A stretch of 64,000 bases of DNA, taken from positions 62,001 to 126,000 of the forward strand of contig LJZR01000016.1 in assembly GCA_001314865.1 (NCBI GenBank), in the 5' to 3' direction. Below the pieces are notes generated by a model. That model was not told the origin of the DNA and searched no databases. It was given only the letters and a program-made list of their open reading frames with translations. Shown here in pieces: positions 15,438 to 21,996 of this stretch. The stretch comes from Phormidesmis priestleyi Ana. Its GTDB lineage: Bacteria > Cyanobacteriota > Cyanobacteriia > Phormidesmidales > Phormidesmidaceae. Both the position numbers and the translations under genes were made by a program. Numbering within the stretch: position 1 is the stretch's first letter; every line of letters starts with the position of its first letter.

Positions 15438-16769
15438 TTATCTACCAAATGTTAAATTTTCTAGACTTTGACCCGGTGGCAGATCAATAAAGACGCGATC
15501 GCCCGCTTCCAATCCCTCAATAATTTGAATTTGCTCACCCACCTGAGATCCTAAAACCACTGGTTCAAACTGGGCTTGACCGTTCTCTCCAGGAACCAGC
15601 ACGCCCGACTCCCCGCTCTGAGTGATGATAGAAACCGTCGGAACAACCAGCGCATTTTCCAGGCGATCGCCAATAAAAGAAACCGTCGTCGTCATATTTG
15701 ATCGCAGCTGATCGGTCCCGCTCAGCAGCTGTACTCTCACCTGAAAAACGGTCACGTTTTGCCGCTCAATCGCCTCCGGTGCAATCAGCCGTACCCTGCC
15801 TTCAAACGTCTGATTCGGGAACGCATCGGCCTGTATCTCTACCGTCTGCCCCACTTGAATGCGACTGATGTCTGCTTCAGGGACTTCGGCAATTACCTCT
15901 AGTCCACTGGCGATCGCCACAATCGCAGTAGAAGTTGCTGATGTCACATCTGAAGCGGTTGCAGTAGGCGTTACAAACGCACCTTCTTCAGCGAAACGTT
16001 GGGTGACAATGCCGTCAAAGGGGGCGCGAATTTCGGTATCGGCGAGCTGCACTTCTATCGACTGTAGTTGGCCAATGGCGCGATCTAGGCGCGCCTGAGC
16101 TTGGGCAATCGTCTCGGCATTGTTGCCGTCTTGCTGATCAATCAGGCGCTGCTCCGCTTCGTTAACACCCGCAATTGCCTGATTAACTCCCGAGGTGGCG
16201 CTGCGATTTTCATTGATCGCCCGGTCTAAGTCGCTGCGTGAAATCGCACCCTGATTGTACAGGCGCTGATTGCGACTCAAATCATCGGCGGCAAGCGTTT
16301 GGCGAGCGCGGGCATCGGTGAGCTGAGCGGCGGCGGCGGCCACAGCAGCTTCGGCCTGTCGGATATCGGTACTAGAGGCTCCGTTGAGTGTGTCGTCTAA
16401 CTGAGCTTGGGCTTCAGCAACGCTCGCTCGGTTTTGCGCGAGCTGAGCATCGATCTGGGTGCTGTCCATACGGGCAATCAGCTGACCTTGAGTAACGCGA
16501 TCGCCTTGCTCTACCAATAGCGACTCTAGGGTGCCTGAGGTCTTAGGGCTAAGGTTTACCGTCCGTAACGGTTCTACGCTACCGCTAGCAGTGATCCGCA
16601 CGGTTAGCTCGTCAGCAGTGACGGGTACCGTGAGTTCATTAATGTCGTATTGTGGGCCGCGGCGAGACAGGGAAAAGGCAATCCCAACAGCTGCCACAAT
16701 GCCGAGAAATCCCAACGCCAGAAACCAGGGCAGCGGCCGCTTAAAACGACCAGAAAAGGGCAAACGCAT
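15438..16769 (-). CDS. Efflux periplasmic adaptor (HlyD/MFP family), no pump partner adjacent
   Basis: Membrane-fusion protein of about 443 residues: an N-terminal anchor (FLALGFLGIVAAVGIAFSL, about 15-33), lipoyl half-motifs (VEQGDRVTQGQLIARMD; IRAPFDGIVTQRFAEEGAFV), a long coiled-coil hairpin between them, and beta-barrel domains ending in GLEAGDRVFIDLPPG. This organisation suits an RND or MacAB-type efflux complex. No RND or ABC gene is beside it. It is divergent from the NRPS gene, so export of the NRPS product is a reasonable but untested idea. ATG at 16769 is preferred; an in-frame GTG at 16799 is possible. Confidence 0.88.
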   Translation of the reverse strand: MRLPFSGRFKRPLPWFLALGFLGIVAAVGIAFSLSRRGPQYDINELTVPVTADELTVRITASGSVEPLRTVNLSPKTSGTLESLLVEQGDRVTQGQLIARMDSTQIDAQLAQNRASVAEAQAQLDDTLNGASSTDIRQAEAAVAAAAAQLTDARARQTLAADDLSRNQRLYNQGAISRSDLDRAINENRSATSGVNQAIAGVNEAEQRLIDQQDGNNAETIAQAQARLDRAIGQLQSIEVQLADTEIRAPFDGIVTQRFAEEGAFVTPTATASDVTSATSTAIVAIASGLEVIAEVPEADISRIQVGQTVEIQADAFPNQTFEGRVRLIAPEAIERQNVTVFQVRVQLLSGTDQLRSNMTTTVSFIGDRLENALVVPTVSIITQSGESGVLVPGENGQAQFEPVVLGSQVGEQIQIIEGLEAGDRVFIDLPPGQSLENLTFGR

Positions 16770-17150
16770 AAAAACCAGTGCATGGAAGGAGATGCACACA
16801 TTAAGAAAAACAAGCTCTGAAATAGACCAAAGCCTCTCTTCCTACAGCATAGTGATTTTTTAAGCGTAATGATTTTCCTAAGAGGGTAGGCTGCGCGATC
16901 GCTAGAACTTTTTCAGAACTTTTTTGAGGAGCAATCCGCCAACTGGCGGATACCTTTTATGGAACTAGACCGATTGGAGAATAGTCAGATCTTACAATTC
17001 CCAACTTTATTTCCAGATGTAATTACTAGTTTAATCAACTGTTTTTTTTGCTGGCTGTTTTTTGCTGGCTGTTTTTCTCCCAGTGCTCTTTTCCCCAGTG
17101 CTCTATCCTTCTGGCAAACTTCTCGCTAAGTCTTGCTATATCTAATCACT
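16770..17150. other. Divergent adaptor/NRPS promoter region
   Basis: Holds the promoters of the efflux adaptor (minus) and the NRPS (plus). It contains a perfect dyad at 16934-16951 and T-rich repeated words near 17040-17080 (CTGGCTGTTTTT twice). No gene is seen. Confidence 0.55.
16934..16951. promoter_or_regulatory. Perfect palindrome, possible operator
   Basis: ATCCGCCA-AC-TGGCGGAT is a perfect 8-bp inverted repeat with a 2-base centre, placed between the divergent adaptor and NRPS genes. It lacks a following T-run on the plus strand, so an operator for a dimeric regulator fits better than a terminator. No regulator gene is adjacent. Confidence 0.45.
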
Positions 17151-19928
17151 ATGCAGACCGCTACCTCTTCATCGACGACCGTATCGTCATCCGCATCTCG
17201 CTTAACCTCTCCACGAGCAGTCTCTTCTGCTGATGAACTCACATTGCATGGTCTGTTCGAAGCACAGGCGCAGCGAACCCCCCATACTGTCGCGGTTGTA
17301 CATCACAATGGCCACCCACTAACCTACCAACAGCTCAACGAGCAGGCTAATCAGCTGGCTCACTATTTGATCAGTCTGGGTGTTAAGGGCGAGCAACTGA
17401 TTGCCATTAGTCTGGTGCGATCGCCCGATATGCTGGTTGCCTTCCTCGGCGTTCTCAAAGCGGGCGCGGCCTATGTGCCCATCGATCCCGACTATCCCGA
17501 AACCCGGCGACAGTACATTTTGGCCGATGCTCAAGTGAACATTACGCTCACCCAGAGCGATTTGTTAGCAACGCTATCTAGCGATTTAGGCCAAATAATC
17601 TGCTTAGACACAGCGACTTTGCAACTGCAATCGCAGCCTAAGACAAATCCGAATGTGGCGATCGCTCCCGAGCAACTGGCCTATGTTATCTACACCTCCG
17701 GATCTACTGGCAATCCTAAAGGCGTCATGGCCCACCATCGCGGCCTAGTGAACTACAGCCTTGCCCTAGCCGAAGCCATTGACCTGAGCGCCGCTGACCG
17801 GATGCTTCAGTTTTCAACCATGAGCTTTGACTTTATTGTCTCCGAGGTATATCCGACTTTGGCGGTCGGTGGCACGCTGGTACTGCGCTCCGATGAAATG
17901 GTCACTTCTACACAGACGTTTGTTGACTTTATCGCCACGCAAGAAGTCTCGGTGATTCAGTTCACCACCGCCTTTTGGCATGAGCTGGTCAGCGGTATTG
18001 ACCGACTCGGCATTACGCTGCCTGCTTGCCTGCGTCTGGTACTGTTTGGTGGCGAAAAAGCCTCCCTTGCGCTTTGCCAGCAGTGGCTCCAAAAGGTCGG
18101 CGACTATCCCCGCTTGTTCAACGCTTATGGGCCCACTGAAACAACTGTGATTACCACGCTATACGACGTGGTAGGAGAAAATTACGATGCTCAGCACGAT
18201 TTGCCCATTGGCCGCGCTATTCGCAACGCGCAAACCTATGTATTAGATGAGCATTTAAAGCCGGTCAAACCCGGTGAGTCGGGTGAGCTGCATATTGGAG
18301 GGCCAGGGGTCACTCGCGGCTATATGAACTTGCCAGAAAAGACCGCCAGTGTGTTTATTGACAGTCCGTTTGAGCCGGGGCAGCGTCTGTACAAAACGGG
18401 CGACTTGGTCAGGATGGATGAGAGCGGTCTGATTGAGTTTGTCGGACGGGTGGATTTTCAGGTGAAAATCCGAGGCTTTCGGATTGAGCTGGGTGAAATT
18501 GAGAGCTGCCTAGACAGGTATCCACAAGTTCAGCATCGAATTGTGATTGCCAGAGAAGATGTGCCGGGAGATAAGCGGCTGGTGGCCTATGTGGTGCCTA
18601 AGCCGCAGCAGGTGCTGAAACAGGATGATCTAAAGGCGTTTTTGCGATCGCAACTCCCTGCCTTTATGCTGCCATCGGTGATTGTAGAGCTGCCTGAGCT
18701 GCCGAAAAATGCCAACGGCAAGATAGATCGTCAAGCCCTCCCTGCCCCTGATTGGCAAGCCAGTCAGCAAGCCCTCGTACCGCCTCGAACCCCGCTAGAA
18801 GAAAAGCTCGTGGCGCTGTGGCAATCGGTGCTGAATGTAGACGCAATTGGCATTACCGACAACTTCTTTGATATGGGCGGTAATTCGCTGCTGGTGATGC
18901 GCCTCTTTAGCGAGATTGAAGCCCTATTGGGCCAGCGTCTACCGTTGGTTGATATTTTTTCAGCGCCAACGGTTGAACAAATGGCCACCCGATTAGAACA
19001 GATCGAATCTTTGGTGGTTCAACCCAATGCACTGGTAACCCTGCGGTCAGGTACGGTTAATCCGCCCTTGTTTTTGGTTCATGATGTAGATGGCGATACG
19101 ACACTCTATTTAAATGTAGCCAGGCAGTTAAAGGGCGATCGCTCGGTTTATGCGATCGCGCCGCCCAAAGGTCAAAATGGCGTCCTCACCTGTAGCCGTG
19201 TTCCAGAGTTGGCGCAGCACTGCGTCGATCAAATTCGTCAGATACAGCCAAACGGCCCCTATCTGATTGGCGGGCTGTGCGCAGGCGGAGTCATCGCCTT
19301 TGAAACAGCGCGTCAGCTAGAGCAGCGCCAACAACCTGTAAACCTGATTTTAATGGACGCTCCTGCACCAATGGCCCAAAAGCGAGAGGGCCTCATCGCC
19401 AGCGCGCGTGCAGACAGTTTGAGTAGCCTGTGGACTTCACAACAAAGCGTAAAACAAATCGCCTGTAAAGTTTGGCAAAAGGGCACCAACACATTGCGCT
19501 ACGAAATATCTAACGCCTATCAACAACTTGAAACCGGTCTTCGCACTCGATCTTTCCAATGGTTTCAGGACAACGCCTTGCCCTTACCCTCAGTATTGCG
19601 CAGCCTCTCTGTTCGCGATCTGATCCTATTTGCCTACCACCACTATCGCCCCGACGACGCAATGGAATATCAGCTCTCAGGCAAGGTGCTGTTAATTCGG
19701 GCTACCCAAGGCAACGGCACCAAAGCCGACAACGCCTACATCACAGAATACGCCGATCCGCTCTTTGGCTGGAGCCGTTACAGCCAAACCACCATTGAGG
19801 TTAAAGACGTTCCGGGCGGACATTCCACCATGCTCAGCGACACCCATTCGCAAAGTTTTGTGAATGTCCTAGAACCCTTCATCAACTCAGCCCTGTCGTT
19901 AAATGCATCTGAGCCCATCAATCAGTAG
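17151..19928 (+). CDS. Single-module NRPS: adenylation-carrier-thioesterase
   Basis: Enzyme of 925 residues with three domains and no condensation domain. Adenylation (about 30-530): YTSGSTGNPKGV, NAYGPTETT, YKTGDLVRM, the RGFRIELGEIE hinge and the catalytic Lys in NANGKIDRQAL. The Asp that normally binds an alpha-amino group is present in SFDFIV (about D227), so an amino acid is a likelier substrate than a keto acid. Carrier (about 545-620): DMGGNSLLV with the phosphopantetheine Ser near 579. Thioesterase (about 640-920): nucleophile motif GLCAGG, with Cys near 710 in place of the usual Ser, an Asp in LMDAPAP and His near 891 in PGGHS. The start is the ATG at 17151. The cupin-like gene follows on the same strand. 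Product unknown. Confidence 0.93.
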   Translation: MQTATSSSTTVSSSASRLTSPRAVSSADELTLHGLFEAQAQRTPHTVAVVHHNGHPLTYQQLNEQANQLAHYLISLGVKGEQLIAISLVRSPDMLVAFLGVLKAGAAYVPIDPDYPETRRQYILADAQVNITLTQSDLLATLSSDLGQIICLDTATLQLQSQPKTNPNVAIAPEQLAYVIYTSGSTGNPKGVMAHHRGLVNYSLALAEAIDLSAADRMLQFSTMSFDFIVSEVYPTLAVGGTLVLRSDEMVTSTQTFVDFIATQEVSVIQFTTAFWHELVSGIDRLGITLPACLRLVLFGGEKASLALCQQWLQKVGDYPRLFNAYGPTETTVITTLYDVVGENYDAQHDLPIGRAIRNAQTYVLDEHLKPVKPGESGELHIGGPGVTRGYMNLPEKTASVFIDSPFEPGQRLYKTGDLVRMDESGLIEFVGRVDFQVKIRGFRIELGEIESCLDRYPQVQHRIVIAREDVPGDKRLVAYVVPKPQQVLKQDDLKAFLRSQLPAFMLPSVIVELPELPKNANGKIDRQALPAPDWQASQQALVPPRTPLEEKLVALWQSVLNVDAIGITDNFFDMGGNSLLVMRLFSEIEALLGQRLPLVDIFSAPTVEQMATRLEQIESLVVQPNALVTLRSGTVNPPLFLVHDVDGDTTLYLNVARQLKGDRSVYAIAPPKGQNGVLTCSRVPELAQHCVDQIRQIQPNGPYLIGGLCAGGVIAFETARQLEQRQQPVNLILMDAPAPMAQKREGLIASARADSLSSLWTSQQSVKQIACKVWQKGTNTLRYEISNAYQQLETGLRTRSFQWFQDNALPLPSVLRSLSVRDLILFAYHHYRPDDAMEYQLSGKVLLIRATQGNGTKADNAYITEYADPLFGWSRYSQTTIEVKDVPGGHSTMLSDTHSQSFVNVLEPFINSALSLNASEPINQ

Positions 19929-20038
19929 AAGATACCGGATCAATAGATTTTGCATCAATCGGATTACAAATCAATTAGATCACCCATCAATAGATTGCCT
20001 AATCTTCCCATCACGATCCATCCAACCCAAGACAAACT

Positions 20039-20074
20039 GAACACCCAATTGAACACCCAATTGAACACCCGATC
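20039..20074. repeat. 12-bp tandem repeat before cupin-like gene
   Basis: Three copies of GAACACCCAATT (the last one altered) lie just upstream of the preferred start codon at 20082. Confidence 0.85.
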
Positions 20075-20081
20075 AAACACT

Positions 20082-21119
20082 ATGACGACAGCTTCCCCTT
20101 CCGCACCAGCTTCTACGCTAGACTCTGCCAACAACCTCAACAATTATGGCACCCCCCGTATTGGCTGGAGCCCTCAAGACTACGCCGCATTTGGCCGCAA
20201 AACCCAGCTGTTTGACCATAGCTACCATCAACTACCACTGTTTGAAAAGTCAGCGCTCATAACCTTGCTAGACACCTACCCACGGTCGTGCCTACAAGCC
20301 TTTACCATGGGCACCGACAAAACAAACCGTTCTGAATGGCAAAGCGTAGATATTCATCCCGACAGCAGCGGTGAAGACCTGTGGAATGCGGTTGAAAAAG
20401 GCCGCTTGTGGCTCAATATTATTTCTTTAGAAAAGCACAGTAAGGACTATGCCGAGCTTGTAAGAGGTATGTATCGCCATCTTGACCAGCACTGTCCGCA
20501 CCTGGGCGACTTGGTCGCTAGCTACACAACTATGCTGATTTCGTCACCGGGTGCTCAGGTGTATTACCACATGGATGAGTCGCCCAATATGCTGTGGCAT
20601 ATCAGCGGCCAAAAGCGCCTGTGGGTATACCCCGCGATGGACTTGCGATTTGTTCCTCAAGACTTTTTGGAAGAGATTTACACGGGTGAAATAGCCGAGT
20701 TTTTGCCTTACGATCCTAGCTTTGACGAGGCTGCCGAAAGCTTTTTACTCACACCTGGCAAAGTCGTTTCTTGGCCGCACAATGCGCCCCATCGCATCGA
20801 AAACCTGACTATGAATGTCTCACTGACTACAAGTTTTCGAGCCCCTACTCAACAGCGTCGCGCGCTGGTGCAGCAGGCGAATCGCTACATTATGCGCAAC
20901 CTAGGAGTCACCAACCGCTCCATGCGTGAAGACGGTTTCCGGTCCGCAGCTAAGCGATTCAGCTACCGAGTGATCAACAAAATTAAACCCTTCAAGCCGA
21001 CCAAGCATCCTCATGACGACTATGTCACCAATTTGCAAATAGACCCTAATGCGTTAAACGGCATGCGAGTGCTGGATCAACCGGTCGTGGCGTCTTTTTC
21101 TAAAGATCGAAAGAACTAA
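20082..21119 (+). CDS. JmjC/cupin-like oxygenase-type protein
   Basis: Protein of about 345 residues with a double-stranded beta-helix (cupin/JmjC-like) core. A plausible metal triad is visible: YYHMDESPNMLWHISG (His-x-Asp, about residues 150-155 of this start) and the distal His in WPHNAPHRIEN (about 235-245), as in Fe(II)/2-oxoglutarate oxygenases. The preceding segment LWLNIISLEKH and the QKRLWVYP strand fit cupin-like proteins. The ATG at 20082 is preferred, because the frame upstream of it is made of the tandem repeat. It lies 153 bp after the NRPS on the same strand, so it may hydroxylate or otherwise tailor the carrier-bound amino acid or the released product. That role is inference. 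Confidence 0.78.
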   Translation: MTTASPSAPASTLDSANNLNNYGTPRIGWSPQDYAAFGRKTQLFDHSYHQLPLFEKSALITLLDTYPRSCLQAFTMGTDKTNRSEWQSVDIHPDSSGEDLWNAVEKGRLWLNIISLEKHSKDYAELVRGMYRHLDQHCPHLGDLVASYTTMLISSPGAQVYYHMDESPNMLWHISGQKRLWVYPAMDLRFVPQDFLEEIYTGEIAEFLPYDPSFDEAAESFLLTPGKVVSWPHNAPHRIENLTMNVSLTTSFRAPTQQRRALVQQANRYIMRNLGVTNRSMREDGFRSAAKRFSYRVINKIKPFKPTKHPHDDYVTNLQIDPNALNGMRVLDQPVVASFSKDRKN

Positions 21120-21207
21120 AAGATCGAAAGAATTGGAAAATTGAAAGAACTCAAAAATCGACAAGACCCAGTGTTGTGTCCATTCCTGGAAGTCGTCGGG
21201 GTTGCAG

Positions 21208-21996
21208 CTATTTCTTAACGGCTACTATTCGTAAGCGTCTATAGTCTGCAATCCATTGCCCTTCTTGATACAGCTCACTGGCAGCAGTCTCAACAGCACT
21301 CACGATCTGAGCCCATTGTGCGGCAGAAAGATCCGCAAAAAAGCGCTGTGAGAACATGGCTAACCATCCGGCTAAGCCAGCATCCCCTAAAGGCGTGGGC
21401 CGATCAAATAGCTGGGCAAAGACCACCTCGAATCCGACTTTCTCAAGCAGGCTGCTGTACTCTCCTATGCTGGGGAAATACCAAGGGTTTAGGTTGTTTG
21501 GGGGGGTTAGAGGATTTAGGGTGGGGCGATCGCGCATCTCCTCACCCAGATTGCTCACTGTTTCTAAAGCGGTTTCTAGGGCGGTGAGGATCGTCTGCAC
21601 ATTGCCTTTGCCGCCTAGCTCTGCAACAAATCGCCCGTTGGGTTTTAGCGATCGCGCCACGCAGCGAGCCGCATCTTCAGCTTGCGTCACCCAATGTAGC
21701 GCCGCGTTAGAAAACACTGCATCCACAGGCTCAACCAGCTGAAAGTCGGCAGCATCAGCTACTTTGAAGGTGATATGGGGGTAGTTAGCCTGAGCTTGAG
21801 CAATCATATTAGGATCGCTATCTATCCCAATCACTTCAGCACCACTAGCCGAAATTTGTCCTGCTAGTTGCCCAGTCCCACAGCCCAAGTCAAGAATTTT
21901 CTCCGTAACCTGAGGATTCAGCTGTGCCAGCAGGCTTTCGCCATGTTGCCAAATATAGCTGTACTGCTGCTGATAGTGAGTGGCATTCCAATTCAT
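21208..21996 (-). CDS. Class I SAM-dependent methyltransferase
   Basis: Protein of 262 residues with a Rossmann-type methyltransferase fold. Motif I is LDLGCGTGQLAG (about 35-46), the acidic residue GIDSDP closes strand beta2 (about 56-61), and the beta4 motif VDAVFSNAALHWV is of the trans-aconitate methyltransferase/UbiE-like type. The overall length and the SNAALHWV segment fit the Tam-like group, which methylates small acids. It is convergent with the cupin-like gene, so it may belong to the NRPS locus or may be independent; divergent from cobS. Confidence 0.85.
   Translation of the reverse strand: MNWNATHYQQQYSYIWQHGESLLAQLNPQVTEKILDLGCGTGQLAGQISASGAEVIGIDSDPNMIAQAQANYPHITFKVADAADFQLVEPVDAVFSNAALHWVTQAEDAARCVARSLKPNGRFVAELGGKGNVQTILTALETALETVSNLGEEMRDRPTLNPLTPPNNLNPWYFPSIGEYSSLLEKVGFEVVFAQLFDRPTPLGDAGLAGWLAMFSQRFFADLSAAQWAQIVSAVETAASELYQEGQWIADYRRLRIVAVKK

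Follow-up and report, generated by a model that had tools for sequence, protein, structure and literature searches.

Background

Within one stretch of DNA of the cyanobacterium Phormidesmis priestleyi Ana, a single-module, NRPS-like protein, a predicted oxygenase, a small-molecule methyltransferase and an efflux adaptor are encoded side by side. Do these genes constitute one minimal biosynthetic pathway and, if only some of them do, what might those make? The window analysed here (64,000 nucleotides in length) was the subject of a preliminary description, which took the four genes for one compact locus. Its open reading frames and domain readings agree with the coordinates and the Pfam and NCBIfam assignments obtained here:

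15438-16799, minus strand: periplasmic adaptor of the RND/HlyD type (Pfam and NCBIfam)
17133-19928, plus strand: NRPS-like single-module protein with adenylation (A), thiolation (T) and thioesterase (TE) domains, 931 residues, TTG open reading frame (Pfam)
17256-18722, plus strand: adenylation domain, code DFSQLGAVIK
18801-18995, plus strand: thiolation (carrier) domain, phosphopantetheine serine in MGGNSL
19065-19922, plus strand: thioesterase domain, cysteine nucleophile
19950-21119, plus strand: predicted, divergent Fe(II)/2-oxoglutarate oxygenase of the Cupin_8/JmjC type, TTG open reading frame
21208-21996, minus strand: class I SAM methyltransferase (Pfam and NCBIfam)

The A-T-TE and oxygenase genes, whose likely start codons are the ATGs at 17151 and 20082, respectively, lie on the same strand and are flanked on either side by genes of the opposite strand. 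Scans for promoters and terminators gave no signal above chance. Short direct repeats (AACACCCAATTG; 20039-20070) occur in the leader, directly ahead of the ATG at which the oxygenase gene probably starts.

Results and discussion

Which of the four genes belong together

Joint conservation provides a basis for deciding which genes form a unit, and it divides the proposed locus in two. The HlyD-type adaptor, part of an older efflux/permease block, is found in 56 of the 57 genomes of the family, without the pair formed by the A-T-TE and oxygenase genes; in the sister species G383 the AcrB-adaptor-OppC-secreted protein block around it matches that of the window but has no A-T-TE gene. The methyltransferase is present in 23 of the 57, and in those relatives that were inspected its neighbours are different. 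Both genes, which are on the strand opposite to the pair, are therefore unrelated neighbours rather than partners, and the four-gene cluster is ruled out; what stands of it is a compact biosynthetic unit of two genes.

The oxygenase is rare: within the order it is present in 2 of 63 genomes, namely this genome (G000) and that of G383, and across the class (388 genomes) these two are joined only by a few distant homologues. Both genomes also encode an A-T-TE protein with a cysteine thioesterase (Cys-TE); of the seven genomes in the genus, the remaining five lack the oxygenase and show weak matches or none to the Cys-TE. No close relative of the pair was found among plasmid sequences or viral contigs.

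In G383 the two genes lie on separate contigs, but their apparent lack of linkage is overturned by the contig ends: C428 (with the oxygenase gene) and C241 (with the A-T-TE gene) terminate within the two halves of one gene for an FAD-dependent protein, which is single-copy in all four genomes tested. Measured against the G000 orthologue, which has 546 residues, one fragment spans residues 5-357 and the other 370-541; the contig ends read ...VVTNGM and GKNANSG..., where the orthologues have VVTNGMSQYERSG(R/K)NANSG, so that about six residues are missing. Because the contigs abut inside a single-copy gene, the A-T-TE and oxygenase genes of G383 would lie about 4.5 kb apart on the same strand; this join is inferred, and the draft assembly behind it has 7% contamination. 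The A-T-TE gene comes first, and between it and the oxygenase gene are the FAD-dependent gene, mnmE and a DUF2062-like gene. In G000 the FAD-gene block is found on the contig of the window, at a distance of about 50 kb, and contains neither member of the pair; hence the pair sits at a different site in G383 than in the window, in the same order and on the same strand. By simple arithmetic, an unlinked gene in a genome of 5.6 Mb has a chance of about 0.2% of lying no more than 5 kb from a given gene.

Apart from G000, linkage was thus found in a single genome, that of G383, which is also the only further member of the genus to carry the oxygenase. The two genes are linked in both species, each time at a different site, and are jointly missing from the remaining five members of the genus; this travelling together supports a functional link. 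Against such a link, the G383 genes are not immediate neighbours, and the oxygenase frame (L025:3924-4911) is split by a frameshift, which reflects either an assembly error or a decaying gene.

The A-T-TE protein

The A-T-TE protein matches the Pfam families AMP-binding (2.2e-90), PP-binding (1.3e-15) and Thioesterase (1.8e-22), as well as AMP-binding_C, and Pfam detects no condensation (C) domain in it; it therefore comprises a single module, in which the A, T and TE domains have their catalytic residues. Among solved A domains, ApnA A1 (4d4g, Arg/Tyr) of the anabaenopeptin synthetase is closest over the substrate-binding region. A domains with ApnA A1 codes, DVE(D/S)IG... (such as DVEDIGAIEK and its variants), take Arg, Tyr or Lys (PMC5311044). 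The window code, DFSQLGAVIK, keeps the equivalent of D235, which points to an amino acid as substrate, but has no acidic residue at positions 239 and 278 (the latter read by alignment with ApnA). As both acidic code residues of its Arg-like relatives have been lost, a basic amino acid is, judging by the code, an unlikely substrate.

In a tree of A domains the window protein groups with the G383 protein and with a paralogue of its own on contig C115 (support 97/96). Their codes, DIEDVGTVTK and DIEDVGTVSK, are both near those of ApnA A1, and the difference between the window and G383 codes makes a substrate common to these two proteins doubtful. The C115 paralogue (L024, 4256-9696) is likewise an A-T-TE protein, with an Arg-like code; its A domain is 52% identical to that of the window protein, but its thioesterase has a serine (GHSFGG) instead of a cysteine. 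It is encoded near a different Fe/2-oxoglutarate oxygenase, PF13640 (an AhpC/TSA-2OG-FeII_Oxy_3 fusion), and a sulfotransferase.

The catalytic residues of the window thioesterase are a cysteine (rather than serine) nucleophile in GGLCAGG, an aspartate in LILMDAP and a histidine in PGGHSTM. Its best match among solved structures (2.5e-20) is AB3403 of Acinetobacter (4zxh), which has a cysteine nucleophile and an aspartate at position I (PMC11298585). Both residues align with those of the window thioesterase, whose aspartate is kept as D or E in its relatives; AB3403, however, is a longer, complete NRPS protein of 1320 residues, whereas the window protein has no C domain. In a tree of thioesterases the window domain groups with that of G383 and with a third protein (support 99/98).

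The oxygenase

The oxygenase has no Pfam match at default thresholds. At a relaxed threshold it gives sub-threshold matches to Cupin_8 (18.5 bits, where the cut-off is 27.4) and JmjC_2. Its relatives in Acidobacteria do pass the Cupin_8 cut-off (34.0 bits for L022 and 37.6 for L023), and in an alignment of eight sequences, the window oxygenase included, an HxD...H iron triad (H207xD209...H281) and K222 are invariant. The profile of these eight sequences matches a solved human JmjC protein, C2orf60 (3al5), at 6.9e-5. A structure prediction from four sequences reached a pLDDT of 46, too low for a judgement of the fold.

Large NRPS clusters of other cyanobacteria do contain distant Cupin_8-like relatives, but these (L029-L031) are only 19-22% identical to the window oxygenase and form a separate clade. 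A comparable known system is the biosynthesis of laxaphycins and scytocyclamides, where hydroxylation of Leu and Asn has been proposed for the Cupin_8 proteins LxaF-G (PMC7524897). Like the window, this system couples a Cupin_8/JmjC-type oxygenase with a cyanobacterial NRPS; unlike LxaF-G, whose proposed targets are residues within a long peptide from a large cluster (PMC7524897), the window oxygenase is paired with one module and no peptide.

A proposed two-gene pathway

As both proteins are complete in their domains and motifs, and their genes are linked, the simplest reading is one of loading, oxidation and release. The A domain would adenylate one amino acid and load it onto the carrier domain as a thioester; the JmjC/Cupin_8 oxygenase would then hydroxylate this residue, most likely in its tethered state; and the cysteine thioesterase would remove it, either by hydrolysis or by transferring it onto a small nucleophile. 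Such a sequence would yield a hydroxylated amino acid, or else a small ester or amide derived from it. The preliminary description expected a modified single amino acid, a dimer or an ester; a single modified residue, or a small derivative of one, is indeed the reasonable product. Precedents for the proposed steps are LxaF-G, for Cupin_8 hydroxylation in the context of an NRPS (itself a proposal), and SyrB1-SyrB2-SyrC (see below), for oxidation on a single loaded carrier; in its favour, too, the C115 paralogue is encoded near an Fe/2-oxoglutarate oxygenase. This reading is regarded here as about evenly poised between right and wrong.

Alternative explanations

The foremost alternative is that the two genes are linked by chance or through co-transfer, with the oxygenase acting on a surface polysaccharide or protein and the A-T-TE protein working alone. 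The nearest relatives of the oxygenase are from a Gammaproteobacterium (55-56% identical) and G383, followed by those of Acidobacteria. The gammaproteobacterial gene adjoins a CelD/FemAB-like GNAT gene, the acidobacterial genes lie among glycosyltransferase genes and a second Cupin_8 gene, and a relative in Mariluticola is within an exopolysaccharide operon. The oxygenase family is therefore not confined to NRPS settings, and this alternative stays alive; moreover, lone A-T-TE genes of the Cys-TE family occur elsewhere (L085 and L093). Nevertheless, the linkage of the pair at two sites in two species and its joint absence from the remaining five members of the genus render it unlikely, though it deserves serious consideration.

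A less probable alternative is that the cysteine thioesterase esterifies the amino acid, or its hydroxylated form, onto a sugar, thereby decorating a glycan or glycolipid in a manner comparable to the aminoacylation of cell-surface polymers. The window thioesterase belongs to a family with cysteine nucleophiles that is spread over the class, and about 40 of its relatives have no such oxygenase nearby; 24 of the roughly 40 loci of this family have a gene for a family 2 glycosyltransferase in their vicinity, mostly directly adjoining. This association, together with the presence of oxygenase relatives in exopolysaccharide operons, favours decoration, but the whole of the window lacks a gene homologous to that for this glycosyltransferase, and this alternative is accordingly considered rather improbable. 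A broader formulation, that the pair is a mobile minimal pathway in which JmjC-type hydroxylation of a single amino acid takes place on an A-T-TE protein and the cysteine thioesterase hands the residue to a non-peptide acceptor (such as a surface sugar), is tentative and likewise unlikely, though less so.

At ten loci of other cyanobacteria (L064-L069, L071, L075, L077 and L080) the same Cys-TE is fused as FkbH-T-TE, its FkbH domain matching TIGR01686 in all three proteins tested, and a family 2 glycosyltransferase gene adjoins in most; these loci possibly specify a small glyceryl-glycoside or ester pathway. In a further set of proteins (L072, L074, L076, L083, L087, L092, L096, L098 and L102), which are A-T-TE proteins or longer, a serine replaces D235, the code being SIFHSGICMK in several that were checked. 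Their genes lie near those for a glycosyltransferase, a 4-hydroxyphenylpyruvate dioxygenase homologue and, mostly, a prephenate dehydrogenase; code and neighbours together suggest that these proteins may activate an aryl keto or hydroxy acid. A plasmid of Gloeothece verrucosa (L141, 4549-12354) encodes an NRPS of one-module size (1380 residues) that matches the window A-T-TE protein and is followed by a glycosyltransferase, PEP-CTERM proteins and a protein with an Asp/Asn beta-hydroxylase domain.

About as improbable as glycan decoration is a role as an in-trans loader, in which the cysteine thioesterase would be an aminoacyl transferase that passes the residue to another assembly line. The precedent for oxidation on a single loaded carrier, and for the same division of labour, is SyrB1-SyrB2-SyrC of syringomycin biosynthesis, of which SyrC is the aminoacyltransferase (PMC3039948). 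Like the window pair, that system combines an A-T loader with an Fe/2-oxoglutarate enzyme, but its acyl-transferring activity is separate, whereas the window thioesterase is fused to the loader; likewise, the window oxygenase is of another family, with HxD and not the HxA/G of halogenases. The genome does hold a large PKS/NRPS cluster (contig C88, about 26.8-101 kb; L142-L146), its main one, which begins with an acyl-AMP-ligase-like protein and has about ten C-A-T modules. Every NRPS module seen in it has an A domain of its own, however, so that no outside loader is needed there, and no acceptor module lacking an A domain was found in this cluster. At the end of the C88 cluster no thioesterase of the window type was detected.

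A beta-lactone synthase of the ObiF type, with the oxygenase making the beta-hydroxyl and the cysteine thioesterase closing the ring, would fit the nucleophile and the predicted hydroxylase, but is most improbable and was rejected: ObiF1 and SulM have their catalytic aspartate at position II (PMC11298585), while that of the window thioesterase aligns, by sequence, with the position I site of AB3403. The acylating C domain, too, is absent. Finally, a ligase for mycosporine-like amino acids resembling MysE (a cyanobacterial A-T-TE protein, and thus of the same architecture), acting with a MysH-like oxygenase, is scarcely credible and is refuted at the gene level: no mysA, mysB or mysC lies beside the A-T-TE gene, the code DFSQLGAVIK differs from the usual Ser code, and the single DHQ-synthase homologue in the whole genome is presumably AroB, leaving mysA (DHQS-like) absent.

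Conclusions

Each part of the proposed two-gene pathway is of a known kind, and its novelty is modest; the literature searched describes no such combination of an A-T-TE protein and oxygenase, and the preliminary description knew of no named pathway with the larger set. If the proposed reading is correct, however, this unit would be among the smallest possible carrier-protein pathways, and one that is easily expressed. It would furnish a test case for the action of JmjC/Cupin_8 enzymes on carrier-bound amino acids. More generally, it would shed light on a family of one-module Cys-TE proteins that is widespread in cyanobacteria and whose products were not found described in the literature searched.
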